Below, piece after piece: positions 36,128-52,322 of a stretch of 64,000 nt of DNA (the stretch's first letter is position 1; every line of letters begins with the position of its first letter). The position numbers were made by a program, and so were the translations under genes. This stretch comes from Bacteroidota bacterium (lineage in GTDB: Bacteria > Bacteroidota > Bacteroidia > Palsa-965): positions 62,001-126,000 of the forward strand of contig JAAFIA010000001.1 of the NCBI GenBank assembly GCA_013298545.1, written 5' to 3'. The notes beneath the pieces were generated by a model. It saw nothing but the letters and a program-made list of their open reading frames with translations, did no database searches and was not told the origin of the DNA.

Positions 36128-36154
36128 TTGCAAAGAATTATCATTCGTAAAATC

Positions 36155-36703
36155 ATGACACCTGAAAACACATCGGCAATTCAAAATCTAGTGCATTCAG
36201 ATCTAAAAACGGCGAACGTTTTTGTCTATGACAAGTGTGGCTTTGACTTCACTCGTCTTGTTTGGGATGCCGAAAGTATTGCTTATGGTGCTTGTTCTTT
36301 TGTGCTTAACGGAAAAAATATCCAACACCGTATTTCTAAAATAACACCAACAAAAACGGGTCAGTTTGTAACCATTTGGAAAAGGAATAAGGCCGGAATA
36401 ACGGCTCCTTTTGAGGATTCGGACAACATCGATTTTATACTCATCACATCAAAATGTGGTGATGCGTTTGGACAATTTATTTTTCCAACCGCTGTTTTGA
36501 TTGACAAAGGAATCATAACGGCTAATGGCAAAGAAGGAAAACGTGGCATACGCGTTTATCCACCTTGGGATGTTGCCACGAGTAAACAAGCGGAGAAAAC
36601 ACAAGACTGGCAGACACGTTATTTTTTAACTATTAAAGACGATGGTACAACGGATATTGAATTAGCGAAAAAATTATTTGCTCATTGCAACAAAGTTGGA
36701 TAG
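36155..36703 (+). CDS. MepB family protein
   Basis: KCGFDFTRLVWDAESIAYGACSFVLNGKNIQHRISKITPTKTGQFVTIWKRN...GIRVYPPWDVATSKQAEKTQDWQ. Start set at the ATG at 36155, because the listed start is TTG. Confidence 0.8.
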   Translation: MTPENTSAIQNLVHSDLKTANVFVYDKCGFDFTRLVWDAESIAYGACSFVLNGKNIQHRISKITPTKTGQFVTIWKRNKAGITAPFEDSDNIDFILITSKCGDAFGQFIFPTAVLIDKGIITANGKEGKRGIRVYPPWDVATSKQAEKTQDWQTRYFLTIKDDGTTDIELAKKLFAHCNKVG

Positions 36704-36731: not shown

Positions 36732-36782
36732 TACTTCCTCCCCTTCTGCGCCGATACCTGATACTCGCGTGGTGTTTTATTC
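36732..36782. repeat. 51-bp direct repeat, left copy (duplicate of araC 3' end)
   Basis: TACTTCCTCCCCTTCTGCGCCGATACCTGATACTCGCGTGGTGTTTTATTC, identical to 38078-38128. Confidence 0.97.
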
Positions 36783-36786
36783 GGTT

Positions 36787-37467
36787 TTACTGCACGAATT
36801 TTTTCATTGCCTCCAGAATTAAATAGCTAGCCGGAGGAGATGCTCTTTCAACATGTCCGTCAATCCATTCAAAGTGGTTCGGATTGTTTAATACATTTTG
36901 AAATTCGATGCGTAAATAGTTTCTGAGATTCTCATTCGTATTATTCATTTCATCCCAAATAGACGCCCTATTTTCTAGGGTATAAATGATGTCTTCAAAG
37001 TCCGAGCTTGTTCGGCCATCATTTTTGCCGCGACCTTTGAATGCTTCAAATTTTGTTGCAATAAAAAAAGGAGCACTCAATATTTTTACTTTACACCCTT
37101 CATCAATTATATAATCAATGGCTTGGTTAAAGCCTTCTGGATACCATGTATTGCTGAACCCAATTGAGATATCGTTTGTTGGCATGATGTCAACAACAAT
37201 TCCATTTATCTTATATCGACAAACTACACCAGATTCAATATCATGTGAAAAACCAATGCCTCTTAATTTTTCTTCCAAATCGACCCTGTTTTGATAGTTT
37301 AATATTTCTATTAAAACATCGACATCATCAGTAGGTCTCACTTCAAACACCTGCCTATCGGGATAAAGCGATATCGTTGCACCTCCAACAAAAACAACTT
37401 TTTCTTTTAGATTGTCAAGGGCATTTGCTACAGCCTTTATCCTAACAATATTAATGCGATGGCTCAT
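36787..37467 (-). CDS. AbiEii-like nucleotidyltransferase
   Basis: VVFVGGATISLYPDRQVFEVRPTDDVDVLIEI: GG...L and DxD NTase motifs; abuts the upstream HTH gene. Confidence 0.75.
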   Translation of the reverse strand: MSHRINIVRIKAVANALDNLKEKVVFVGGATISLYPDRQVFEVRPTDDVDVLIEILNYQNRVDLEEKLRGIGFSHDIESGVVCRYKINGIVVDIMPTNDISIGFSNTWYPEGFNQAIDYIIDEGCKVKILSAPFFIATKFEAFKGRGKNDGRTSSDFEDIIYTLENRASIWDEMNNTNENLRNYLRIEFQNVLNNPNHFEWIDGHVERASPPASYLILEAMKKFVQ

Positions 37468-37959
37468 CTACACTGTTTTTTTCAATTCGGCAACAGCATA
37501 TTTAACCTCTCTCACTTTCCCTACACGAATAACATCCACTAGCGCAAGCAATTTGTAATACTCTTTGTCTTCGGCAACACTTTCAGGCTGTTTTGGATAA
37601 AAAGGCTCTATCATTTGTCCCATAACATCACCTTTATTATCTGGCCAAACATAGTTCATTTCACTCATAAATTTATTTTTCATAAGCGGATGAGAATGAG
37701 CTGTAGGAATACCTCTTACTATTGCCCCTGGTTGCTGCGGGAAAACATAACGAACACCGTGCTCTAAAAATTCCAACAAGTTTTGTCGATTAACTTTTTT
37801 CTTTTTGTAATCAATAAGATTTGCAATTCGGCTTCTGTTTAAAGACTCCGAAATTTCTGAAAGGCTTATGCATAACGAGTTTGACAATCCTAATAATTGC
37901 CAATTTTGCCCTTCTAATGCAATAATTTTGATTAGAATAGCAATGTCTTGTGGCCGCAT
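37468..37959 (-). CDS. HTH-domain protein, partner of the nucleotidyltransferase (putative AbiEi-like antitoxin/regulator)
   Basis: MRPQDIAILIKIIALEGQNWQLLGLSNSLCISLSEISESLNRSRIANLIDYKKKKVNRQNLLEFLEHGVRYVFPQQPG. The listed start at 37983 is a TTG inside the -7 box; candidate starts are ATG 37977 and ATG 37959. Confidence 0.68.
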   Translation of the reverse strand: MRPQDIAILIKIIALEGQNWQLLGLSNSLCISLSEISESLNRSRIANLIDYKKKKVNRQNLLEFLEHGVRYVFPQQPGAIVRGIPTAHSHPLMKNKFMSEMNYVWPDNKGDVMGQMIEPFYPKQPESVAEDKEYYKLLALVDVIRVGKVREVKYAVAELKKTV

Positions 37960-37988
37960 GCCATTGTGTTTTCGCATATGCAAATATA

Positions 37989-38029
37989 ATTATTTTCGCA
38001 TTTCGCAAATTGCGAAATGCGAAAATAAT
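37989..38029. promoter_or_regulatory. Perfect 41-bp palindrome (20-bp arms, 1-nt centre), putative operator
   Basis: ATTATTTTCGCATTTCGCAA-A-TTGCGAAATGCGAAAATAAT, immediately upstream of a TATATTTG -7 box (minus, 37981-37988). Confidence 0.85.
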
Positions 38030-38076
38030 GGCATGCTAGCATAGCTATCAATCAAAAACACCCTAATTTTTAGCAA

Positions 38077-38958
38077 TTACTTCCTCCCCTTCTGCGCCGA
38101 TACCTGATACTCGCGTGGTGTTTTATTCATCACTTTCCGAAATACGCGGTTGAAGTGCGAGACGTTTCCAAAACCACACTCGTACGCAATTTCCGACACC
38201 ATCACATCGGTTCCGGTTTTTAGGCGGCGGCAGGCTTGTTCTACGCGCACTTCGTTGAGAAAGGTAATGTAGGTTTTATGCGTGTGTTTTTTGAAGAACC
38301 GGCAAAACGCTTCAGGCGTCATGTGTACAATTTCGGCAGCATCGCCAACTGTTACTTCCTTATTGAAATTTTTTAGCGTGTAATCGAAAATTGCGTGCAT
38401 GCGCGTTCCTTCGCGTTCGGTAAGGTCGCTTCCTACTTCGCCGTCAGATAACGGTTGGTGGCTGCTGTGGTGCAAAACCAAATCGATCAATTGTAAGAAA
38501 GCCGTGAGGCGTTGCAAGCCTTGCAATACACGCACACGCAAAAACGCTTCCGTAACCGCCACATAATCTTTCGGTTCAATGCGATATCCGCGTGAAGAGC
38601 GTTGAGCAAACTGTTTCAACTCGTGCAATTCTGGAATATTTCCCAAACTCGATGGCACTTCCGAAACATCAAAAAACACAGAAATCGATTGCGCCTTGAG
38701 CCATGTTTTCTTTTGAAAATAAATGGGATCGCAGCGAAATACATGCGGTTGATTTTGGCCAAGCCAATAAATTTCGCCCGAAGAAAAATGTCCCGTATAA
38801 TTTCCCGCCAAAAGTGTTCCTTCTCCTTTCAGAATCCATGTGAGTTGCACTTCGGGGTGTTGATGGAGGTAATCGTAAAAATGCGACTGAATATCTTCCT
38901 CCACGATCACAGAGTTTTCTCTGAGAACCGGAATTTTGAAGGGTAATATCTTAGTCAT
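38077..38958 (-). CDS. AraC family transcriptional regulator with N-terminal cupin
   Basis: C-terminal AraC HTH (VSEIAYECGFGNVSHFNRVFRKVMNKTPREYQVSAQKGRK). Confidence 0.9.
   Translation of the reverse strand: MTKILPFKIPVLRENSVIVEEDIQSHFYDYLHQHPEVQLTWILKGEGTLLAGNYTGHFSSGEIYWLGQNQPHVFRCDPIYFQKKTWLKAQSISVFFDVSEVPSSLGNIPELHELKQFAQRSSRGYRIEPKDYVAVTEAFLRVRVLQGLQRLTAFLQLIDLVLHHSSHQPLSDGEVGSDLTEREGTRMHAIFDYTLKNFNKEVTVGDAAEIVHMTPEAFCRFFKKHTHKTYITFLNEVRVEQACRRLKTGTDVMVSEIAYECGFGNVSHFNRVFRKVMNKTPREYQVSAQKGRK
38078..38128. repeat. 51-bp direct repeat, right copy (within araC 3' end)
   Basis: Identical to 36732-36782. Confidence 0.97.
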
Positions 38959-39192
38959 GATTGGGTTAATAGGCTAGTTATGTAGTGCGATATTAATAAA
39001 AAAAGGTCAATCTTGGATGGCAAGAGGTCAATTTCTGCAAACCAATAGCTAAAATTTGATTAGCCAACCAACCGATATGCTTCTACATTTGTTGCGGTTG
39101 CCGTTGCGTTGTCCTCGTTCTTTCTAAAATTGCAACCACCAGCGGAAACACATTTGGTTTCACTCACGATGTTCCGCTCAACACATCAGCAC

Positions 39193-39226
39193 AAAAGGCC
39201 GGGATTAGCGTTCCGGCCTTTTTGTT
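39193..39226. terminator. Intrinsic terminator (bidirectional)
   Basis: AAAAGGCCGG GATTAGCGTT CCGGCCTTTTTG. Confidence 0.85.
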
Positions 39227-39243
39227 TTGTAGGCTTTAGCCGA

Positions 39244-40746
39244 TCATTTTTTCAACACAATCCGAAACGTCGTGCCTTTTCCAAGTTCAGATCGCTTAAC
39301 GAAAATTTTCCCTTTGTGATATTGCTCCACAATGCGTTTGCATAGCGATAAGCCCAAACCCCAACCGCGCTTCTTTGTCGTAAATCCTGGCTCAAAAATG
39401 GTCTTGTATTTCGATTTGGGCATGCCTTTTCCCGTATCCGTAATATCAATATAAACAAACTGCATTTGATCTGTTGCCTCAATATCAATGCGACCCTGAC
39501 CGTCCATAGCATCTACGGCATTGCGGCAAAGATTTTCGATGACCCATGCAAAAAGCGGAACATTGAGCGGTACCGTCATGTTGCGTTCTGTTTTTACGGC
39601 AAATGTTACACTCTTGGGCGATCGGGAGCGGATGTAATCGACGGCTTGCTCTAGGGCTTCTTCCAAATTTTCGGATTGCATTTTGGGTTGCGATCCAATT
39701 TTCGAGAACCGTTCAGTAATCATTTCCAAACGCTTGAGATCTTTCCCAATTTCGTCTGTCATTTCGGGATCAACACCTTTGAGTTTGAGCAATTCTTGCC
39801 ACGCAATGAGCGAAGAAAGCGGCGTTCCGAGTTGGTGCGCGGTTTCTTTGGCCATACCTACCCAAACATGATCTTGTTCGGCTTTGCGCGAAGTGCTAAA
39901 CATTAAATACGCAATGAGCAAAAACATGCCGACAACCACAATTTGTCCGACTGGAAAATAACGCAACTGCTTCAACTGCGGCGATTCCATGTAATAAATC
40001 AAATTCTTTTTGCCATTGCCGAGCGAAACCGTAATCGTATCGCCATATTGCCGCAATTCTTTGAGCGCTTCTTGCAAGTACGCTAACGAATCTTGCTTGA
40101 TCAAAACCGTATCGAGGTTTCCGTAGGCCAGAATTTTTGTTGACGTAGAATCGGTGTAGATGGCCGGTGCGGAGGCCGGATTGGCCGCAACCTCTTTGAT
40201 AAACGAGCGTTCGTTGTTTTCAAACGATTGTCGTATTTCGGTAAACACTTCAGAATCTTTGTAAAACAAATACTGAAAACGACCGCCGCCTACGTCAATC
40301 GGAATGCTGTCGTGCTGCGCGCGCATGAGCACTAGCTGCTCCTGAATGTAAACCGTATCGCGCAGGCGTGTAGAATCTAAATTGCGCGCATACACAAATC
40401 GCCCACGATCATCGCGAAGCATTACGGGAACAGTTTCGTTTCCTTTAATGACTTCAAAGGCAAAACTATAATCGCTTAAATCTTTTGAAAGTTGGCGGTT
40501 TGCTTCGGCCCAAAGCTCTACTTTTTTGCGTTCTTCGCGCGCAATTTTTGAATACAAGGTGTTGGTTACTTCAACCAAAACAGCTTTGCGGCGCACGGCC
40601 TCGGCCCAAAGTTCAACATTGCGTTTTTCGCTTGTCGATATTTTTTTGACCAGTCTCCCCGAAAACCAGAGCGATATGCCCACAATGATTGCCGCTGCAA
40701 GCAGAAGCAGAAGTTTCCATTGTTGTTTGCGGGAATAGATGTTCAC
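39244..40746 (-). CDS. Membrane sensor histidine kinase
   Basis: KETAHQLGTPLSSLIAWQELL H-box, N-box (VIENLCRNAVDAM), DTGKGMP, GLGLSLCKRIVEQ. The listed start (40767) is a TTG inside a TACCTTTG -7 box; GTG 40746 is an alternative. Confidence 0.88.
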   Translation of the reverse strand: MNIYSRKQQWKLLLLLAAAIIVGISLWFSGRLVKKISTSEKRNVELWAEAVRRKAVLVEVTNTLYSKIAREERKKVELWAEANRQLSKDLSDYSFAFEVIKGNETVPVMLRDDRGRFVYARNLDSTRLRDTVYIQEQLVLMRAQHDSIPIDVGGGRFQYLFYKDSEVFTEIRQSFENNERSFIKEVAANPASAPAIYTDSTSTKILAYGNLDTVLIKQDSLAYLQEALKELRQYGDTITVSLGNGKKNLIYYMESPQLKQLRYFPVGQIVVVGMFLLIAYLMFSTSRKAEQDHVWVGMAKETAHQLGTPLSSLIAWQELLKLKGVDPEMTDEIGKDLKRLEMITERFSKIGSQPKMQSENLEEALEQAVDYIRSRSPKSVTFAVKTERNMTVPLNVPLFAWVIENLCRNAVDAMDGQGRIDIEATDQMQFVYIDITDTGKGMPKSKYKTIFEPGFTTKKRGWGLGLSLCKRIVEQYHKGKIFVKRSELGKGTTFRIVLKK

Positions 40747-40927
40747 GTTGCCGGGGATTGTTTTCAAAGGTAATTATTCTGTGGCAATGCGTGAGGGTGC
40801 TTTTTCCCACACCCACACTTGTTCACATCCCCCCGCTCGAAACTCCCCCGCACACAAATCAAAACTCTAAAAATCTTCGGTACTTTTGAGCATGAAATTT
40901 TTTGCGCAATCCTGCGTTTTCTATCGC

Positions 40928-42799
40928 ATGAAAATCTCCCCGCTTATTCTGCTCTTTTTGATTATCGGATTTGCTGCACCTGCACAAACCGGCAAAAAAC
41001 CAAAAAGCAAAAGCACAACCACCGCTGCTAAACGAACAACGGCTGGCAATCCCAAACCCGAGAAAAAAATCGAGTATTGGGATCAGGAAAAAAAGCACAA
41101 AAAAAGCGAAGAATTTTTGCTCAACGGCAAGCAGCACGGCAAATGCAGCTACTGGTATCAAAACGACAAACTCGCGCGTACAGGAAGTTTTATCGATGGG
41201 AAAGAAGATGGTTTCTGGATCTATTATTACGACGATGGCAAAAAGAAAGCCGAAGAATTTTATATCGAAGGAATAAAATTTGGCCGTGCCAAATACTGGT
41301 TCAAATCGGGACAACAAGCCATGATTTGTCGTTATGTTGGCAATGTGGCCGATAGCACTTGGGTTTCGTGGTACGAAAATGGTCAAATCAAAAGCAATGA
41401 AAACTTCAAAGCGGTTTTTGTCAATTTCCGCTGGGGCACCATCAAACAAGGGCAATTCCGCTACTGGCGCGAAAATGGAACACCTGAAAGCGATGGTTTT
41501 TTTGTCAATGATACCCTGCATGGCCCATACAGTTCTTGGCATCCGAATGGAAAAATGCGTGAAACGGGTGAGTTTACAAAAGGTAAAAAATCGGGCCGCT
41601 GGAAATACTTTTACGAAAACGGAAAACTTATTTCTGAAAACGAATACCGCGATGGACTTGAACTGATTTGGGAACTATACGCCGAAGACGGAAAACACCT
41701 CATTGCGAATGGAAACGGACGTTTGTTGCTCGTTTACGACAATGGCAAAAAAAATGCGGAAGGCAATTACCGCAACGGCTTACGCGATAGCACGTGGACA
41801 TTTTGGACACCAAACGGAACACTCGATTTTAAAGACGATTTTCGTGAGGGACGAAAAAACGGAAAATCCATTCATTGGTATGCCGATGGAACCATAAGCA
41901 TTGAAGGACAATACGAAAACGACCTGAAAACGGGCAATTGGACTTGGTACAAAACCAATGGAAAAATAGATATGTCGGGCGAGTTTTCAAACGATTTAAG
42001 AAATGGGCATTGGCTTTATTATTTCCCAGAACAAGACAAAATAGAAACAGACGGGTGGTTTAAAGACGATCTTGAAGATAGCTTGTGGACATATTGGTAC
42101 CCCAACGGACAGAAGTACAAAGAAGGTACGTTTGTAAAAGGCAAGAAAAATGGCGAATGGAAATTTTGGTTCGAGAATGGTCAACTTTTGCAAGAAGGCG
42201 TTTTTGTCAACAATAAAAATCATGGCCTTTGGACATCCTGGTACGACAATGGCGCCATCAAAGACCGCGGCACATTTGATTCGAGCTTGATGGTTGGCAA
42301 ATGGGAAGGTTGGTATTTCAACGGCCAACTCAATTATTCGGGCACCTACGGCGACAAAGGAAGAAAAGAAGGGGCTTGGAAATTTTATTGGAAAAATGGC
42401 AAGATGATGGAGCAAGGTTCGTTTAGGAACGGACTGCATGCTGGAAAATGGACGTATTGGAGCGAAGCGGGAATTTTAGATCGTACGGGGCATTACAAAT
42501 ACGATAAGCAGCATGGCAAATGGAAATACTATTACGAAACAGGTGGTTTGATGACGGAGCAATCGTATGATGTGGGCAAGTTGAAAGGCAAGAGCAAAAC
42601 GTATTACATGGATGGCAAACTAAAAGCTGTTGCCAGCTATAAAATCATTCGGCAAAAAGAGTTTATTGCCACAAAAACCAACGGTAAAAAAGTATATAAA
42701 ACGCGCAAAGTAAGCAAACCACATGGCAAATGGCTTTTCTATGCCCCGGACGGAAAAGTCCTGAGCAGCCTGCGCTATAAGAAAGGTGTAAAGCTTTAG
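40928..42799 (+). CDS. Secreted MORN/YwqK-repeat protein
   Basis: Signal peptide MKISPLILLFLIIGFAAPAQT; many ~22-aa repeats of the form W.YWYENGQxxxEGxFxxGKxxGxW. Confidence 0.85.
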   Translation: MKISPLILLFLIIGFAAPAQTGKKPKSKSTTTAAKRTTAGNPKPEKKIEYWDQEKKHKKSEEFLLNGKQHGKCSYWYQNDKLARTGSFIDGKEDGFWIYYYDDGKKKAEEFYIEGIKFGRAKYWFKSGQQAMICRYVGNVADSTWVSWYENGQIKSNENFKAVFVNFRWGTIKQGQFRYWRENGTPESDGFFVNDTLHGPYSSWHPNGKMRETGEFTKGKKSGRWKYFYENGKLISENEYRDGLELIWELYAEDGKHLIANGNGRLLLVYDNGKKNAEGNYRNGLRDSTWTFWTPNGTLDFKDDFREGRKNGKSIHWYADGTISIEGQYENDLKTGNWTWYKTNGKIDMSGEFSNDLRNGHWLYYFPEQDKIETDGWFKDDLEDSLWTYWYPNGQKYKEGTFVKGKKNGEWKFWFENGQLLQEGVFVNNKNHGLWTSWYDNGAIKDRGTFDSSLMVGKWEGWYFNGQLNYSGTYGDKGRKEGAWKFYWKNGKMMEQGSFRNGLHAGKWTYWSEAGILDRTGHYKYDKQHGKWKYYYETGGLMTEQSYDVGKLKGKSKTYYMDGKLKAVASYKIIRQKEFIATKTNGKKVYKTRKVSKPHGKWLFYAPDGKVLSSLRYKKGVKL

Positions 42800-42802
42800 C
42801 CT

Positions 42803-43096
42803 TTACGATGTTTTCTTACGCAAGCGGCGGAAATGCGGGTCGTTGGGATGGTTGTAATGTGGCTTATGCACATTGTTTCCGGGAGTACTTGATTCTTCAT
42901 CTTTGTTTTTCCCAGATTGACCTACCGTAATGACCCAAGCGAAGAGAACTACGCCTATAATGAGGGCAACGTAAAGTAGGATTTCGCCCACAGAGATTCC
43001 TTCTGGTTTTCCTGCGGTTTGAGCCCAAGTAGGTGTACTGAGCATAAGGGTTGCGGCAATGAGCGCAATTCCTTTGGTGTTGTGTTTCGGCATCAT
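42803..43096 (-). CDS. Small membrane protein, hypothetical
   Basis: Signal peptide plus one TM (GEILLYVALIIGVVLFAWVITVG). Upstream CAAATATA (TATATTTG -7 on the minus strand) at 43194-43201. Confidence 0.55.
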   Translation of the reverse strand: MMPKHNTKGIALIAATLMLSTPTWAQTAGKPEGISVGEILLYVALIIGVVLFAWVITVGQSGKNKDEESSTPGNNVHKPHYNHPNDPHFRRLRKKTS

Positions 43097-43259
43097 GACT
43101 ATGCGTGTTTGCGTTAGACAGGTTCGATGCCGTTCTTTTGTATTCATGAGGCCAAAAAAGAACGTCGTCGGAAGTATTATTGGTTTGGTCTAGCAAATAT
43201 ACGTCTTTATCGACCAGAAAGTCAAGTAAAAAAGATTTGGATTTATACTTATTCTATTG

Positions 43260-43267
43260 TACATTTG
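43260..43267 (+). promoter_or_regulatory. -7 box of the rimP-nusA-infB promoter
   Basis: TACATTTG matches TAnnTTTG; 59 nt from the end of the box to the rimP ATG. Confidence 0.65.
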
Positions 43268-43293
43268 CACTCGCAATTCGTAGAAAAACAATT

Positions 43294-43321
43294 CAGGGGA
43301 CAGAAAGTCCCCTGTTTTTTT
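43294..43321 (+). terminator. Leader terminator / putative attenuator upstream of rimP
   Basis: CAGGGGAC-AGAAA-GTCCCCTG then TTTTTTT: perfect 8-bp stem, 5-nt loop, 7-T tract ending 5 nt before the rimP ATG. Confidence 0.85.
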
Positions 43322-43326
43322 GTCGC

Positions 43327-43791
43327 ATGATCAACCACAATACCGTTCGCCAACTGGCCGAAGAACATCTCGCAGGCACCGATCTTTTTCTCGTTGACAT
43401 TACCATCAACGCGAAAAACAAAATCGCTGTATATGTTGACCGTATGGGCCATGTAGCCATCAAAGACTGCGTTTCGTTGAGCCGCCACATCGAGTCGAAT
43501 CTTGATCGTGAAGCCGAAGATTTTGAACTCGAAGTGTCATCGCCCGGCCTCGATAAACCGTTCAAAGTTATTCAGCAGTACGAAAAAAATATCGGCAAAG
43601 CGGTTGAGGTCGTTCTCAAAGACGGTCGCAAAATAGAAGGAACACTTACCGAAGCATCTGCTGAACGTATTGTTCTTGAACAACACCTGATTAAAAAAGT
43701 TGAGGGCAAAAAAACAAAACAAAAAACAACCGAACAGCACCCGTTTGCTTTCGCCGACATCAAAGAAACCTACATCGTCATTTCTTTTTAA
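43327..43791 (+). CDS. rimP: Ribosome maturation factor RimP
   Basis: EVSSPGLDKPFKVIQQYEKNIGKAVEVVLKDGRKIEGTL; upstream of nusA. Confidence 0.92.
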   Translation: MINHNTVRQLAEEHLAGTDLFLVDITINAKNKIAVYVDRMGHVAIKDCVSLSRHIESNLDREAEDFELEVSSPGLDKPFKVIQQYEKNIGKAVEVVLKDGRKIEGTLTEASAERIVLEQHLIKKVEGKKTKQKTTEQHPFAFADIKETYIVISF

Positions 43792-43840
43792 TTCAATATA
43801 CTAAACAAGAGTCATCCATAATTTGACATCCGTTTCAACA

Positions 43841-45091
43841 ATGGAAAACATCAACCTGATCGAATCCTTCTCAGAGTTTAAGGAAACGAAAAACATCGAC
43901 CGCACTACGTTGATCAGCATCATCGAAGACGTATTCCGCAGTCTTATCCGTAAAAAATACGGTAGCGACGAAAACTTCGACGTTATTGTAAATCCCGAAC
44001 GCGGCGACTTAGAGATTTGGCGCAACCGCGAAATTGTCGATGATGAATTTGCTGAAGACAGCTTTGATTACGACGAAAACAAACACATTGGCTTGAGCGA
44101 AGCCCGCAAAATTGAACCCGATTTTGAAATTGGTGAACAAGTAACAGATAGTTTTAAGCTCGATGATTTTGGACGCCGTTCTGTTTTGGCAATCCGTCAA
44201 AACCTCGTTTCGCGCGTACTCGATCTCGAAAAAGACGCCATCTACCAAAAATACAAAGAACGTGTTGGTGATGTCATTACGGGCGAAGTTTACCAAGTCT
44301 GGAAAAAAGAAACACTCATTCTCGACGACGAAGGCAACGAACTTATTCTTCCTAAAAACGAACAAATCCCGGGCGACTTTTTCAAAAAAGGCGATTCTAC
44401 CCGTGCCGTTGTTTCTAAAGTGGATATGCGCAACAACGCGCCTGTCATTATCCTTTCCCGCACCTCGCCTGTTTTCCTCGAAAAATTATTTGAAAACGAA
44501 GTTCCTGAGATTTTCGATGGCCTCATTACCATCAAGAAAATTGTCCGCGAACCAGGCGAACGCGCCAAAGTTGCTGTTGAGTCGTACGACGATCGCATTG
44601 ACCCTGTTGGTGCTTGTGTGGGCATGAAAGGCTCACGCATTCATGGCATTGTTCGCGAATTGAAAAACGAGAACATCGATGTTATCAATTATACTGCCAA
44701 TACACAACTCTTTATCCAACGTGCGTTAAGTCCAGCAAAAATCACATCAATCAAGCTCGACGAAGAAAATAAACGCGCCGAAGTATTCCTGAAGCCCGAT
44801 CAAGTTTCGCTTGCTATCGGAAAAGGAGGACACAATATCCGTTTGGCTGGCCGCTTAACCGGATACGAAATCGACGTTTACCGCGATACGGATGAAGATG
44901 TGGAAGACGTTACACTCGACGAATTCGGAGACGAAATCGAACAGTGGATTATTGATGAGTTCAAAAACATTGGTTGCGATACAGCGAAAGCCGTATTGGA
45001 ACTGAGCGATGAAGAACTCATCCGCCGTACCGACCTCGAAGAGGAAACCGTACGCGAAGTAAAACGCATTTTGCGTTCCGAGTTTGAATAA
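43841..45091 (+). CDS. nusA: Transcription termination/antitermination factor NusA
   Basis: S1/KH domains: VREPGERAKVAVESYDDRIDPVGACVGMKGSRIHGIVRELKNENIDVINY. Confidence 0.96.
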   Translation: MENINLIESFSEFKETKNIDRTTLISIIEDVFRSLIRKKYGSDENFDVIVNPERGDLEIWRNREIVDDEFAEDSFDYDENKHIGLSEARKIEPDFEIGEQVTDSFKLDDFGRRSVLAIRQNLVSRVLDLEKDAIYQKYKERVGDVITGEVYQVWKKETLILDDEGNELILPKNEQIPGDFFKKGDSTRAVVSKVDMRNNAPVIILSRTSPVFLEKLFENEVPEIFDGLITIKKIVREPGERAKVAVESYDDRIDPVGACVGMKGSRIHGIVRELKNENIDVINYTANTQLFIQRALSPAKITSIKLDEENKRAEVFLKPDQVSLAIGKGGHNIRLAGRLTGYEIDVYRDTDEDVEDVTLDEFGDEIEQWIIDEFKNIGCDTAKAVLELSDEELIRRTDLEEETVREVKRILRSEFE

Positions 45092-45098
45092 GTTGCCA

Positions 45099-45149
45099 AC
45101 GATTTTTCGGGAACAAAAGCCGCCGCGAGCCATGTTCCCGAAAAATCGT
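45099..45149 (+). promoter_or_regulatory. Perfect 17-bp-stem hairpin between nusA and infB
   Basis: ACGATTTTTCGGGAACA - 17-nt loop - TGTTCCCGAAAAATCGT; no T-run follows. Confidence 0.85.
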
Positions 45150-45232
45150 GGAAAATAAGTGGTCATTTGCCGAATGAGTGCTTTGTTTTCCGACCTTTGT
45201 ACACCGAAAATTCAGCGCGGCAAAACGACTCT

Positions 45233-48232
45233 ATGTCAGAAACCGAAAAAACAATCCGACTCAGCAAAGTCAAAGGCGAGTTGAACGTGTCTCTTGAACG
45301 CATCTTCGAAGTACTCGAAGAAGCCGAGGGGCAAAAGATCGACCGCAACCCAAATGCAAAAATCTCAGAAGCGCAATACCGTCTTCTGCAAGATGAATTT
45401 GCTGTAGATCGGGAAGAAAAAGAAGAATCCAAGCAAATCGGACTTAGCACCAAAGCCCGCAAAGAAACGATTGCGCTTGAGAGTGATTCACGCCCACGCG
45501 AGAAAGAAAAAGAGCGCACACCGGAAGTGGCGAAAGAACCTGTGAAGGAGAAAGAACCCGTAAAACCGGTTGTCGAAACACCTCCCGCTGTTGTTGTTGA
45601 AAAGAAAGAAGAGGAAGAAGCGCCAAAAGTAGAGCCTGTTGTTGAAAAACAAGAGGAAGAAAAACCTGCGGAGGAAAAAACAGAAGAGATTGTTCGTGTA
45701 AAAGCCGAATCAACCTTTACTCCAAAAGTAATCGGCAAAATCAATCTCGAAGAAAAACCAAAAGCGAAAGGTAAAGCTCCCCAAAAGGTTGAGAAAGCTC
45801 AGGAAAAACCGAAGACTAATCCGAAAGGCGATAAAAACGCACCGAAAAAACAAGAGCCTGTTGTTACTCCTAAAGAAGAAGTAAAAGCAGAACCTGTTGT
45901 TGAAACGCCTGTTGTTACCGAAACGCCCGCTGTTGATATTCCTGAGGAGAAAAAAGAAGAAGTGCTCTTCCGCCGTACCGTCGATAAACTCGAAGGACCG
46001 AAGATCATGGGCAAAATTGTTTTGCCCGTTAAAGATGACAAGAAAAAACCTGTCGCCTCTTCTTCTGCTCAATTTGAATCCGACAAAAAGAAAAAACGCA
46101 AACGCATTCGTAAAGAAGGCGGACCTGTTGATCCAAAATCGTTTGCTGCTAAAAACGATCAAAATAAAACAGGCGGCGGACAAGGTGGTGGTGGAAATAA
46201 CCAAGGAAATAACAACAACCGCAACCGTCCAGGCGGTGGTGGTGGAAATAATCGTCCAGGCGGAAACAATCGCCCAGGCGGAAACAACCAAGGAAATAAC
46301 CGCAAGCCGAATACTCCGAAGGCTGAACTCACCGAAGAAGAAGTACAGGCACAAATTAAGGAAACACTCGCCCGTCTTAGCGGTGCTGGTGGAAAATCCA
46401 AAGCCTCTAAATACCGCCGCGAAAAACGCGATCAAGTTAGCCAACGTATTCAACAAGAAGCAGCAGCTCAACTTGCCAATGAAGGTATTTTAAAAGTAAC
46501 CGAATTTGTTACCGCTGCGCAACTCGCTACCATGATGAATGTTCCTGTAACAAACATCATCTCAACCTGTATGACGCTTGGCTTGTTCGTTTCCATCAAC
46601 CAACGTCTCGATGCCGAAACCATCAGCATCCTCGCCGAAGAATTTGGCTACAAAGTTGACTGGGTAAGTGCTGAAGTTCAAGAAGCCATTCAGGAAGAAG
46701 AAGATCGTCCTGAAGACCTCACCGATCGTCCGCCAGTTGTTACTGTCATGGGTCACGTTGACCACGGTAAAACATCACTCCTCGACTACATCCGCAAAAC
46801 AAACGTTATTGCTGGTGAATCGGGTGGTATTACGCAGCACATCGGAGCTTACGCGGTAAAACTCGAAAACGGAAAACAAATTACGTTCCTCGATACACCG
46901 GGTCACGAAGCGTTTACGGCGATGCGTGCGCGTGGTGCGAAACTTACTGACGTAGCCATCATCGTAGTGGCTGCCGACGATAGCGTCATGCCGCAAACCG
47001 TTGAAGCAATCAACCACGCACAAGCTGCGGGTGTTCCGATTGTATTCGCGATTAATAAAATTGATAAGCCCGGAGCAAATCCAGATAAAATCCGCGAAGC
47101 ACTCTCGGCCATGAATATCTTGGTTGAAGAATGGGGCGGTAAATTCCAGTGTCAAGAAATCTCGGCCAAAAAAGGTCAGCACATCGACACACTTCTCGAA
47201 AAAGTATTGCTCGAAGCCGAAATGCTTCAGCTCAAAGCCAATCCGGTACGCCGCGCCGTAGGTGCGGTCATCGAATCGACGCTTGATAAAGGTCGTGGTT
47301 ATACTGCAACCGTTCTCGTCGAAAACGGAACCATGCGTGTAGGCGATGTCGTTCTTGCTGGTTGTTTCAGTGGTCGTGTCAAAGCGATGCACAACGAACG
47401 CGGACAAGATATTCTCGAAGCCGGACCAGCAACGCCAGTTCAGTTGCTCGGCCTCAACGGTGCGCCACAAGCGGGCGATAAATTCAACATCATGGCCGAC
47501 GAACGCGAAGCCCGTGAAATTGCCAACAAACGTTTGCAACTTCAGCGCGAGCAACAAATTCGTACCACCAAACACATCACCATCGAAGAAATTGGCCGTC
47601 GTATTGCCCTCGGCGATTTCAAAGAACTCAACGTCATTGTCAAAGGCGACGTGGATGGTTCAATCGAAGCGTTGGCCGATGCGTTGCTCAAACTTTCTAC
47701 CGAGAAAGTTCAGATTCGCATCATTCACAAATCAGTTGGTGCCATCAGCGAAAGCGACGTACTCCTTGCTTCTGCTTCAAACGCCATCATCATTGGCTTC
47801 CAGGTTCGTCCGTCTGTCAATGCGAAGAAGCTTGCCGAAACAGAACAAATCGACATTCGTCTCTACTCCATCATTTACAAAGCCATCGAAGAAATCAAAG
47901 CCGCGATGGAAGGTATGTTGGCCCCAGAGTTTGAAGAGAAAGTTGTTTGTAACGTCGAGATTCGCGAAGTATTCCGCATCACGAAAGTGGGAACAATTGC
48001 TGGTTGTTATGTACTCGATGGTAAAGTCAACCGTCAAACCAAAGTACGCATCATCCGCGATGGCATTGTACTCCACGACGGCTCACTTGGTTCACTCAAA
48101 CGTTTCAAAGACGATGTGAAAGAAGTTGCTGCTGGTTACGAATGCGGTCTGAACATTGATAAATTCGACAACATTCAAGTTGGCGATTTGATCGAAGGTT
48201 ACGAAATGGTTGAGATCAAACGCAAACTTTAA
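45233..48232 (+). CDS. infB: Translation initiation factor IF-2
   Basis: [51 protein letters not shown]; low-complexity N-terminal region. Confidence 0.97.
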
Positions 48233-48250
48233 TTCACTTATTCACTGTAT

Positions 48251-48290
48251 AAAAAGAGGATGTCTCCAAAGAGGCAGCCTCTTCTTTTTT
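48251..48290 (+). terminator. Intrinsic terminator after infB
   Basis: AGAGGATGTCTC CAAA GAGGCAGCCTCTTCTTTTTT. Confidence 0.75.
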
Positions 48291-48351
48291 GTGGTGTAAT
48301 TTGGACCTTTAATACGGGTCATAGTCTTCTATAAAAGTTTGAGCTATAAAA

Positions 48352-48528
48352 TAACCGCAAAGGGCGCAAAGAAAGCGCAGAGGGGGCAAAGCCCAGTTTT
48401 CGAAAATCCTTTTCGGTAAAATTTTAACCGTCAAGTACACCAAGAAAGTGTAACGTTCGCAAAGCCCATTATTGGGAAATAGCAATAGCTCCGCGCTCTT
48501 TGCGAAACCTTTGCGGCCTTTGCGGTTA
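48352..48528. repeat. Inverted-repeat-bounded intergenic element (CGCAAAG family)
   Basis: TAACCGCAAAGGGCGCAAAG ... CTTTGCGGCCTTTGCGGTTA: 20-bp terminal inverted repeats, 1 mismatch. Confidence 0.8.
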
Positions 48529-48612
48529 AAAAATTATTGCTCTGTTTGTGCTAACGATATACGCTCTTTTGAAGTCGCGCACGTATTTGATAACCGCGAT
48601 TAGTAAATAAAC

Positions 48613-49983
48613 CTACGGAAATAAAACACCGTTACAATCGATGCAGTTTAAGGTTGGAATCGTTGCGCCATATTTTGCATTGATGGCGAAAATAAATTCG
48701 TTGGCAAGTAAGGCATATCCTTTTTGATGTGGATGATAGCCATCGAGCGAGAAAAAACCACCGCTTACAAAAACAGCATTGGTGGTAACACCATCCCATT
48801 GTACGCCACTTGTCAACCGCGCAAAATAAGCGTGCATATCGACAAAGGCTAAATTGTATTCGCTTGCTTTTTGGGCAATGATTTGATTGTATGCGGCAAT
48901 GTGTTGGTCGAGGATGGCGGCCTCGGTGCTATCAATCACATAGCGATCGGGAATGGTCGAAAATAAAATTCCCATAAACTGACATTTCACCGAATCGAGC
49001 GGAAGGCCGAGCGTGAGGTATTCGCCCGCACGAATCTGACGCACACCTTGCGGCGCATTCACATCGTTGATCACAAAACCATTTGCGCCTTCATAAAAAC
49101 GGATGTGCGACAAATTGCTGACATCATAAATATCGTTGAGCGAATCGGCTTTGCTTGCCGTGAGTGTTGCGCCATTGTATGGAATGAGTGAATAATACGG
49201 AAACACCCGAAAATCAGGGATGTTTGCCACCACACCTTTTGCGCCATTTGCCGTGAGTTGCGAAAAAACAGAATCGACCAAAATTTCAAAAGCCGATGGC
49301 GACAAAATGCCAGCACCTTCGCCACCACGCCGAGCATAATCGAAAATATCTTCCATGCCCAACCATGCGGTAAAGAAACTTGCATTTGCATTCACGGCAT
49401 CGCCCAAGACGGTTGATGTGCCGGGCGCGGAGGCCATGCGGTGATAATACGGATTCGTATTGTTTTGAAGCGGCGCATTTCCAAAAGCTGGTAAAAACAA
49501 ATCAACCGTTCGTGCATACGGAATAGCGAAATTTTGGTTCTCGGTATCGTAAGCATTGGCCAAAAAAGGAGCAGCAAACGCGATTGGAAAAGAATCTTTT
49601 ACAGGGCCAAGCGAAACTGTTCCTTCACAATCTGTTCGGTCGCGCAATTTGGATGCGTGTACATAATAACTCTCCCAAGGCTTTAAGTTCCAGCCAAAAC
49701 CATCTGTGTAAGGAATTCTATTTTGAATAAATCGCCCCGCTCTTCCATCGGCTTTAGCAAGCTGGTTAGCAAGCAAGGCCGGAATACTTTTATGCTGACT
49801 TCCTTCGTCCAATGCTCCATTCTGATAACCCGAAAGAAAACCTCCGCCAATGGCAATCGTTTTTCGGAGGTCGAGTGAACCCGACTGTGGCGCGGGCATA
49901 TCCAGCTTAGGCGTACAAGCCGAAACCGCCAAAACAAGGCTAGAAATAAATGCGATGCGTGAAAATAAACGTGCCTTCATCAT
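48613..49983 (-). CDS. SGNH/GDSL-type hydrolase lipoprotein
   Basis: Lipobox (VLAVSACTPK), AIGGGFLSGYQNGA, VSGGFFSLDGYHPHQKGYALLANEFI. Confidence 0.75.
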   Translation of the reverse strand: MMKARLFSRIAFISSLVLAVSACTPKLDMPAPQSGSLDLRKTIAIGGGFLSGYQNGALDEGSQHKSIPALLANQLAKADGRAGRFIQNRIPYTDGFGWNLKPWESYYVHASKLRDRTDCEGTVSLGPVKDSFPIAFAAPFLANAYDTENQNFAIPYARTVDLFLPAFGNAPLQNNTNPYYHRMASAPGTSTVLGDAVNANASFFTAWLGMEDIFDYARRGGEGAGILSPSAFEILVDSVFSQLTANGAKGVVANIPDFRVFPYYSLIPYNGATLTASKADSLNDIYDVSNLSHIRFYEGANGFVINDVNAPQGVRQIRAGEYLTLGLPLDSVKCQFMGILFSTIPDRYVIDSTEAAILDQHIAAYNQIIAQKASEYNLAFVDMHAYFARLTSGVQWDGVTTNAVFVSGGFFSLDGYHPHQKGYALLANEFIFAINAKYGATIPTLNCIDCNGVLFP

Positions 49984-50016
49984 TCAAATAACGGGCATTT
50001 TTTTCACATCTGAAAA

Positions 50017-50898
50017 TTAAGCGAACGCTTTAACAATTTGGAGCAAATCGCGCACATAGCCGCCACCAAACAAATTGGTGTGAACCAGCAAGGGATAAAC
50101 CTGTGCGAATGGCTGGCGCGCTTTCCAGTTTTTTTCGAGTGGGAAATTTTCTTCGTAGCCTGTATAAAAATCGGCACCAAAACCGCCGAAGAGATTGGTC
50201 ATGGCAATATCCATTTCGCGGTGGCCGAAATAAACAGCCGGATCAAAAACGGCTGGACCGAGTAGGCTCACGAAAAAATTTCCGCTCCACAAATCGCCAT
50301 GCAACAAAGCGGGTTGCTCTTGCGGAAAAAGTTCGGGAACAACTTGACAAAAGCGTTCTGTTTTTCTAACCACATCGTACGTCAACGCCTGTTTGTCGCG
50401 GGCCATTTGAAGTTGTGGAAGAATGCGTTCTTCCACAAAAAAATCGGCCCAGGTAGCGTGATTGGCATTTGATTGCGGCAACGATCCAATAAAATTATCG
50501 TGATCGAGTCCGAATTTTTTTTGTGTGATGCGGTGTTGCCGCGCGAGTGCTTGCCCACTTTCAAACCAACTTCGCGGATGCAGCGGACCTTTTTCTAAAA
50601 ACTCCAACAACAGAAACGATGCTGCTTTCTGGTCGCTTGCCGCCAAGACTTTGGGAATACGAAAACCATTGGCCAGTTGCAGCAGATCCAATCCACGCGC
50701 TTCAATCTCAAAACGTATGGGCGATTCGTCTAAACGTTCTTTGTATTTCAAAAAATACGAGCCAACAGGCGTTACCACTTGATAAGCGCGCGAAATATTT
50801 CCACCCGTTACGGCTTGTATGCGTGTAACAATAATGGTACGCCCTTCGCGCAACGAAAGGTGCGACTCAACAGCAGACTGAACAGCAACAGGCAACAT
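50017..50898 (-). CDS. Fructosamine kinase family protein
   Basis: GGNISRAYQVVTPVGSYFLKYKE, ALLHGDLWSGNFFVS, DPAVYFGHREMDIAMTNLFGGF. Confidence 0.9.
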   Translation of the reverse strand: MLPVAVQSAVESHLSLREGRTIIVTRIQAVTGGNISRAYQVVTPVGSYFLKYKERLDESPIRFEIEARGLDLLQLANGFRIPKVLAASDQKAASFLLLEFLEKGPLHPRSWFESGQALARQHRITQKKFGLDHDNFIGSLPQSNANHATWADFFVEERILPQLQMARDKQALTYDVVRKTERFCQVVPELFPQEQPALLHGDLWSGNFFVSLLGPAVFDPAVYFGHREMDIAMTNLFGGFGADFYTGYEENFPLEKNWKARQPFAQVYPLLVHTNLFGGGYVRDLLQIVKAFA

Positions 50899-51099
50899 GT
50901 TTAAAAATAGAAAATTGGAAAATAGCGTGGAAAGATTTTATTTTTTACAAATACTCGGTTGTCAGAAAATCGCGTTACGTGAACTTTTTTGCCCAATCAG
51001 GTCCGATTTAAAATGTGGTGGTGGAAGTAAATCATGTACCTTTTGGAAATTGGAACTTTCAACATTCCATTTTGACCAAACGACAATTCATTTTTCCTA

Positions 51100-51663
51100 T
51101 TATTTCCCGTTGAATTGTGTCATGGTCAATTGCAAACCAATTGTACCAAATGCTTTGATGACTTCTGTTGCTTTGGGAATGCGTGTTTGCAGCAATTCGT
51201 TTTCTTCTTTGGTCCAACGCCCGAGAACATATTCTACTTGGCGTCCTTTCGGAAATTCATTTCCCACACCAAAACGCAACCGCGCATATTCGGTTGTTCC
51301 AAGAACTTCTTGAATATTTTTTAAGCCATTATGTCCGCCATCGCTTCCTTTTCCTTTGAGGCGCAAGGCACCAACAGGCAAAGCAAGATCATCGGTAATC
51401 ACCAAAATATTTTCGCGCTGAATTTTTTCGGCTTGCATCCAATACTGAACTGCCTTACCACTCAAATTCATGTAGGTAGTTGGTTTGATGAGAATAAATG
51501 TGCGCCCTTTGAATTTGTATTCGGTAACATGCGCGTGGCGGTCGAGCCGGAAAACGAGACTGGACGCTCGTGCGAGAGCGTCCAGTACATCGAATCCTAT
51601 GTTGTGGCGTGTACCGGCGTATTCATCACCGATATTGCCAAGGCCAGCAATGAGGTATTTCAC
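51100..51663 (-). CDS. pth: Peptidyl-tRNA hydrolase
   Basis: MKYLIAGLGNIGDEYAGTRHNIGFDVLDALA, KPTTYMNLSGKAV, GSDGGHNGLKNI. Confidence 0.95.
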   Translation of the reverse strand: MKYLIAGLGNIGDEYAGTRHNIGFDVLDALARASSLVFRLDRHAHVTEYKFKGRTFILIKPTTYMNLSGKAVQYWMQAEKIQRENILVITDDLALPVGALRLKGKGSDGGHNGLKNIQEVLGTTEYARLRFGVGNEFPKGRQVEYVLGRWTKEENELLQTRIPKATEVIKAFGTIGLQLTMTQFNGK

Positions 51664-51677
51664 CGATCAGGAATTAT

Positions 51678-52322
51678 TTACTTTTTAGCAGCTGGGGCTT
51701 TTGCAGCAGGAGCAGCAGCTTTAGCGGCTGGAGCTTTTGCAGCACCTTTCGCTTTGTCATCTGTAGCAGCAACAGCCACGTTACGTGTAACCTGAATGGT
51801 AACAATCGTCAAGTTGCTTGCGTCGGTCAGTGTAAGACCATCGACGTTCACATCAGCAACACGAATGTTTTGACCAATGTCAAGTGTTTCGATGTTGATG
51901 GTGATGTTGTCTGGCATGTTGGCAAGTGGTCCGCGCACGTTGAGTTTGCGCAATTTTTTGATGAGTTTACCACCAGCTTTAACACCTGCAGAGTTTCCAA
52001 CCAATTTGATTGGCAAACCAATGTTGATGTCTTTGCCTTCAACAACTTCGATAAAATCGGCGTGAACGATGCGATCGTTAACTGGATTTTGTTGAATTTC
52101 TTTGAGAATAGCAACGTGTTTTTTGTCGCCGATTGTTAATTCAACGGCATGTACATCAGGGGTAAACACGAGTGGGCGGAATTGCGATTCAGGAACAGCA
52201 AATGTTACTTGTTCTTTTCCACCGTAAAGTACGCAAGGTACTTGTTCGTTGCGGCGCAATGCTTGTGCGTCTTTTTTCCCTACGTTCGCGCGAAGCGAAC
52301 CGCTCATAGCAACTGTTTTCAT
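51678..52322 (-). CDS. rplY: 50S ribosomal protein L25/general stress protein Ctc
   Basis: LRRNEQVPCVLYGGKEQVTFAVPE..., L25/TL5 C-terminal domain, Ala/Pro/Lys-rich tail. Confidence 0.92.
   Translation of the reverse strand: MKTVAMSGSLRANVGKKDAQALRRNEQVPCVLYGGKEQVTFAVPESQFRPLVFTPDVHAVELTIGDKKHVAILKEIQQNPVNDRIVHADFIEVVEGKDINIGLPIKLVGNSAGVKAGGKLIKKLRKLNVRGPLANMPDNITINIETLDIGQNIRVADVNVDGLTLTDASNLTIVTIQVTRNVAVAATDDKAKGAAKAPAAKAAAPAAKAPAAKK

Follow-up and report, generated by a model that had tools for sequence, protein, structure and literature searches.

How does an operon of just two genes, with no integrase of its own, come to lie between two identical copies of the 3′ end of a regulatory gene? 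This question is raised by a locus of a Bacteroidota genome, which lies in the stretch of 64,000 nucleotides that was analysed as a whole and is called the window here. The features of the locus are as follows.

36152–36703, plus strand: MepB-like flanking gene (PF08877), convergent, the first gene past the orphan repeat
36732–36782, minus strand: direct repeat copy 2, an orphan araC 3′ end that still closes in a stop codon (TAG)
36787–37467, minus strand: nucleotidyltransferase (NTase), PDC-M21B, 226 aa (PDLC04516, E 1e-55; PF08843)
37468–37977, minus strand: winged-HTH protein, PDC-M21A, 169 aa (PADLOC PDLC04515, E 4.1e-49)
37981–37988, minus strand: putative -7 promoter element TATATTTG, between the operator and the start codon
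37989–38029, no strand assigned: palindromic operator with perfect arms of 20+20 bp, directly upstream of the HTH gene
38077–38958, minus strand: target gene araC, encoding an intact AraC-family regulator of 293 aa
38078–38128, minus strand: direct repeat copy 1, 51 nt at the intact araC 3′ end, up to the second base of the stop codon

The first-pass annotation had described a perfect 51-bp direct repeat that duplicates the araC 3′ end and encloses only two abutting genes and no integrase, and the sequence bears this out. The two 51-nt copies are identical at 51/51 positions and lie 1346 bp apart from start to start, the orphan copy beginning 4 bp beyond the NTase stop codon, and between them we find only two substantial ORFs, which abut and are both encoded on the minus strand. 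The base following the repeat differs between the copies (T versus C), so that the intact araC ends in TAA and the orphan copy in TAG, with a stop codon kept in both. In blastn the match extends to 65 nt at 94% identity, the added 3′-flanking DNA being only about 65% alike. A chance match of 51 nt is ruled out, as about 2.4e7 position pairs in 7 kb have to be multiplied by 4^-51. The duplicated end belongs to a gene whose product matches HTH_18 in a profile search (E 4e-22) and which has orthologues of 70–77% identity in five congeners.

Both enclosed genes can be assigned to a known pair. The PDLC04516 match spans residues 7–222 of the NTase and the PDLC04515 match residues 25–168 of the HTH protein, and all 22 aligned homologues of the latter (22/22) match PDC-M21A as well. 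Hence the locus resembles PDC-M21 in that both proteins fit the models over most of their length and form an abutting pair of equal gene content, whereas the operator, the bracketing by repeats and the mobility lie outside PADLOC's PDC-M21 model. In PADLOC naming, PDC denotes a candidate defence system; our literature search for PDC-M21 returned nothing specific and no paper naming the system. The NTase scores 29.9 bits against AbiEii (PF08843, cut-off 22.5), and its AlphaFold2 model (pLDDT 88.9) retrieves MenT1 as the top PDB match in Foldseek (8an5, E 4e-6), followed by ANT(2'') and MenT3/TglT. Its expected catalytic residues are invariant or nearly so across 33 homologues, with G28, G29, D48, D93 and K139 invariant and D50 also conserved. 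The HTH protein is modelled with a winged-HTH-like N-terminus (pLDDT 91); a comparison with the PDB gave weak wHTH-like matches only, none better than E 0.2, and no significant match for the C-terminal part. It has no Pfam or NCBIfam match and no AbiEi signature. The earlier reading of an AbiEii-like NTase with a partner unlike canonical AbiEi is thus supported on both counts. With AbiE and MenAT the locus shares the NTase fold, the catalytic-type residues and a regulator- or antitoxin-like gene upstream in the operon; what sets it apart is the partner, which neither Pfam nor NCBIfam marks as AbiEi-like and whose model has weak wHTH similarity only. The NTase is a probable toxin or abortive-infection effector and the HTH protein a probable autoregulator or antitoxin, toxicity, neutralisation and defence being suggested solely by the fold, the operon and the operator.

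The palindrome upstream of the HTH gene, which is absent from the first-pass annotation, has a core of the TTCGC-N5-GCGAA type, and a similar dyad precedes the HTH gene in 94 non-redundant cassettes. At position 7 of the half-site the two arms pair in 98% of the cassettes, compared to 69% when arms are taken from different cassettes, and at position 8 they pair in 91% versus 42%, with three types of pair. Since the arms covary within cassettes, the dyad appears to be read by a dimer, which argues for autoregulation by the HTH protein. It is therefore likely, judged from these sequences, that the HTH protein represses its own operon through the upstream palindrome. The -7 promoter consensus of Bacteroidota is TAnnTTTG, and the element TATATTTG would fit it. 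Three further cassettes (L091, L110 and L145) carry palindromes upstream of the HTH gene that go far beyond the needs of an operator, with perfect or near-perfect arms of 22–31 bp whose outer parts differ by genome and remain complementary.

The distribution of the cassette points to spread by horizontal transfer. In a species-level genome collection 477 relatives were found, of which 80 were kept, and PDC-M21A is present in 41 of 395 Bacteroidia genomes. The nearest relatives of the cassette (72–81% HTH identity) are scattered over Bacteroidota, Aquirufa included, while the sole copy found in the same genus shows 64% HTH identity and sits at a different locus; it is these closer homologues outside the genus that argue for transfer. 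A phage collection contained no homologue of the cassette, and carriage by known phages was rejected on that account; plasmids carry distant homologues only (<60% identity). One decaying cassette was also encountered (L044, G041:C26), in which an NTase homologue with 75% identity over residues 18–127 is split by intervening DNA and the HTH frame is broken too.

HTH–NTase pairs flanked by direct repeats, for which the first-pass annotation had proposed a search, do occur elsewhere. Bracketing direct repeats within 1 kb were found at 9 of 41 PDC-M21 loci, while control placements on the same DNA gave 3 in 246 (Fisher p 1.7e-6, kinship among the sequences being ignored); counted by locus the control is weaker (9/41 versus 2/41, p 0.05). 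About 80% of the PDC-M21 cassettes have no bracketing repeat. The repeats are 33–379 bp long and show no sequence relationship to one another; many of them contain a gene or tRNA 3′ end. The clearest counterpart, L162, has almost the same layout as the window: a perfect 140-bp repeat (140/140) covers the 3′ terminus of a SAM hydroxide adenosyltransferase (SAM hydrolase) gene, stop codon included, and the orphan copy starts 3 bp after the NTase stop codon. Other targets are genes for an alanine dehydrogenase (L064) and a methyltransferase (L125), an ABC transporter gene (L115), an AAA/DUF4143 gene (L113) and the 3′ ends of tRNA-Val (L060), tRNA-Phe (L121) and, read by eye, tRNA-Met (L168). The conserved part of the cassettes runs from the operator to the NTase stop codon, and no conserved ends lie beyond it. 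At two loci (L129 and L115) the repeat-bracketed unit measures about 2.1 kb, as some 840 bp extra, apparently a further gene, lie upstream of the HTH gene. The genome that harbors L162 (G213) holds four PDC-M21 copies (L161, L162, L163 and L174), of which only L162 is surrounded by a repeat.

An assembly artefact is conceivable at the araC locus in so far as the genome is a draft of 154 contigs, but we give it a negligible likelihood, as the region lies inside a contig of 150 kb and the same pattern recurs in many assemblies, including that of G213 with about 3 contigs.

The footprint extends to modules of an unrelated family. Repeats of 38–220 bp bracket 10 of 29 usable ParE loci from the window's relatives and none of 39 usable control loci (p 7e-5, again with kinship among the sequences ignored), the SAM-hydrolase control loci coming from another family than the ParE loci. 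We disregarded some apparent matches in the control scan (L027, L186, L194 and L216), in which truncated loci overlap with themselves. Two of the parDE modules reside in the window's own genome (G000), one at the 3′ end of tyrS (L233:4283-5123, G000:C65; 86-bp repeat, 97%) and one at the 3′ end of a gamma-carbonic-anhydrase-like gene (L234:6403-7063, G000:C112; 41-bp repeat, 93%). A parE fragment upstream in L233 points to insertions stacked at tyrS. In the congener G006 a parDE module adjoins a PDC-M21 cassette and has its own 74-nt repeat of an aminotransferase 3′ end; this target has no close orthologue in the genus. Another congener carries a ParE-type module in the gap between an amidohydrolase gene and tyrS (L231:1205-1899, G004:C9), which duplicates the amidohydrolase 3′ end instead and is apparently an independent insertion at this spot. 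Among 30 bracketed modules, the repeat contains a protein gene 3′ end, or lies no more than 15 bp from one, in 15; the expectation is 7% with one site and 14% with two (p 2.5e-6). Part of this bias must be selection, because insertions inside genes get lost.

Regeneration of a target 3′ end with an orphan 3′ end left at the far side is also what integrative elements at tRNA or CDS 3′ ends and CIMEs produce, and the first-pass annotation had drawn the analogy with elements at tRNA ends. If an integrase acted in trans, the repeats would be attL and attR of a CIME- or island-like remnant. At the tRNA 3′ ends such an origin is possible (L060 at tRNA-Val, L121 and L107 at tRNA-Phe, L168 at tRNA-Met), and a serine recombinase-like ORF is present on an island beside L107. 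The eleven repeats that we compared, however, revealed no convincing common core except in the two tRNA-Phe cases, and both an integron attC and a common att core were rejected as the repeats share none. The repeats vary in length between 33 and 379 bp, the intact target gene is found on the HTH side (window, L162, L060) or on the NTase side (L064, L121), no integrase lies between the copies, and the unrelated parDE modules behave alike. Variation of this kind in core, length and side is not what a site-specific integrase with an att site of its own would produce. The analogy thus does not carry over: repeat length, sequence and orientation all vary, so a tRNA-style, site-specific model fits poorly, and we consider integration by an integrase in trans improbable. 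The two tRNA-Phe loci (L107:5894-7245 and L121:5891-7252) hold closely similar cassettes in two genomes, each with a repeat made of the tRNA-Phe 3′ tail and that genome's own terminator; in L107, which adjoins the island, the NTase frame is broken.

Empty sites are available for three insertions (L162, L233 and L234). In relatives of G213 from its family (L185, L186, L187, L189, L190 and L191) no cassette is present, and the gene that L162 has past its orphan copy comes immediately after the SAM hydrolase gene; this shows at the level of gene order that L162 is an insertion plus a duplication. Likewise, within the window's genus, the amidohydrolase gene and tyrS are adjacent in G001, G002 and G005 and split by parDE in the window's genome, and the carbonic-anhydrase-like gene adjoins murI in G001–G005 and is separated from it by parDE in the window's genome. 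Five congeners carry araC without the cassette, and in G001, G003 and G006 araC faces pth. The window's neighbours, MepB and a histidine kinase, stand beside araC in no congener, and our searches of the other genomes found no MepB. As the exact flanks of the window are thus not conserved, the window's araC site is presumed to have been empty before the insertion. In the window, pth and its neighbour lie about 12 kb from araC on the same strand (positions 38077-52322), whereas araC faces them in the three congeners, so that the araC locus has been rearranged.

These sites also bear on whether the repeat might be older than the cassette and independent of it, either as a tandem duplication or as the remnant of a second full araC, the latter being the counter-case raised by the first-pass annotation. 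Tandem duplications of 50–100 bp do occur. A search of the whole genome with the region, however, returned no further copy of the repeat or of araC, the repeats are enriched around the modules and not around control genes, and the empty sites of the sister insertions are single-copy. We therefore regard a pre-existing duplication as very improbable. One candidate for a second araC nearby, another ORF of 293 aa, was rejected, as it encodes a fructosamine kinase and the genome holds no second araC.

The most probable explanation, which we hold with good confidence, is that a mobile, toxin–antitoxin-like PDC-M21 module was inserted at the araC 3′ end with a long, variable target duplication. The bare operon, from the operator to the NTase stop codon, would have entered at the end of araC in a recombinase-independent event that was not site-specific and duplicated 51 bp of the target; by this duplication araC would have been kept intact and an orphan 3′ end left beyond the cassette. 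The NTase would be neutralised by the winged-HTH protein encoded ahead of it. Similar bracketed cassettes and clean empty sites together suggest that such modules insert without a transposase. The initial proposal of a small integrase-less TA- or defence-like cassette that integrated at the 3′ end of a gene and restored that end thus finds support in scattered homologues, recurring bracketed copies and sister empty sites; only its comparison with tRNA-end elements fails, as the 33–379 bp repeats have no shared core and the intact gene occurs on either side.

As to the route, the footprint could be compatible with staggered breaks and fill-in, with template switching or with homology-facilitated illegitimate recombination. 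The first two, staggered-break fill-in or template switching with the incoming fragment, would probably account for it. In the third, an araC allele would have arrived together with the cassette, recombining homologously inside araC and joining illegitimately in the resident 3′ end, so that the orphan copy would be the resident araC end. Such recombination has been described for competent bacteria and for conjugation in E. coli (PMC3240628), and the 74-nt repeat of G006 has 7 differences, mostly synonymous or conservative (e.g. CTG/TTA, GAT/GAG), as if one copy stemmed from a diverged allele. A diverged donor allele is, however, not what the window suggests, where the repeat is identical at 51/51 positions next to non-coding DNA of about 65% similarity, nor does the 140/140 repeat of L162 point to one. 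We consider this route unlikely for the araC locus; it is one possible way to a long target duplication and not a different outcome.

Insertion with long target duplication, as we favour it here, is known for restriction–modification genes (Nobusato et al. 2000 and Furuta et al. 2010, cited in PMC3031569 and PMC3874152). As described in these citing papers, such insertions likewise concern an addiction-type pair without a recombinase and long, variable target repeats in the order of 100 bp, which were seen by genome comparison. The modules studied here agree with that account in a long target repeat at both ends (51 bp in the window and 33–379 bp in its relatives) and in a unit without recombinase or conserved terminal sequences. 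They differ from it, as far as the citing papers describe the insertions, in their cargo, which is an NTase or parDE module of TA type, in their Bacteroidota hosts and in the enrichment of gene and tRNA 3′ ends. A literature search for TA modules with long target duplications found nothing specific.

The footprint bears on an open question, namely how chromosomal TA modules become mobile when they have no transposase. Long target duplications together with orthologous empty sites form a countable footprint in two unrelated module families of one clade. It allows insertions to be dated, their boundaries to be mapped and mechanisms to be tested, connects the modules to the mobility of restriction–modification genes and illustrates how a target gene can survive an insertion at its end. 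More tentatively, and as a possibility that we hold to be less than probable, Bacteroidota might possess an unrecognised host-driven route that inserts bare TA operons of unrelated families at the ends of transcription units with duplications of about 40–380 bp. If so, these modules would be minimal mobile elements without a recombinase or terminal sequence of their own.
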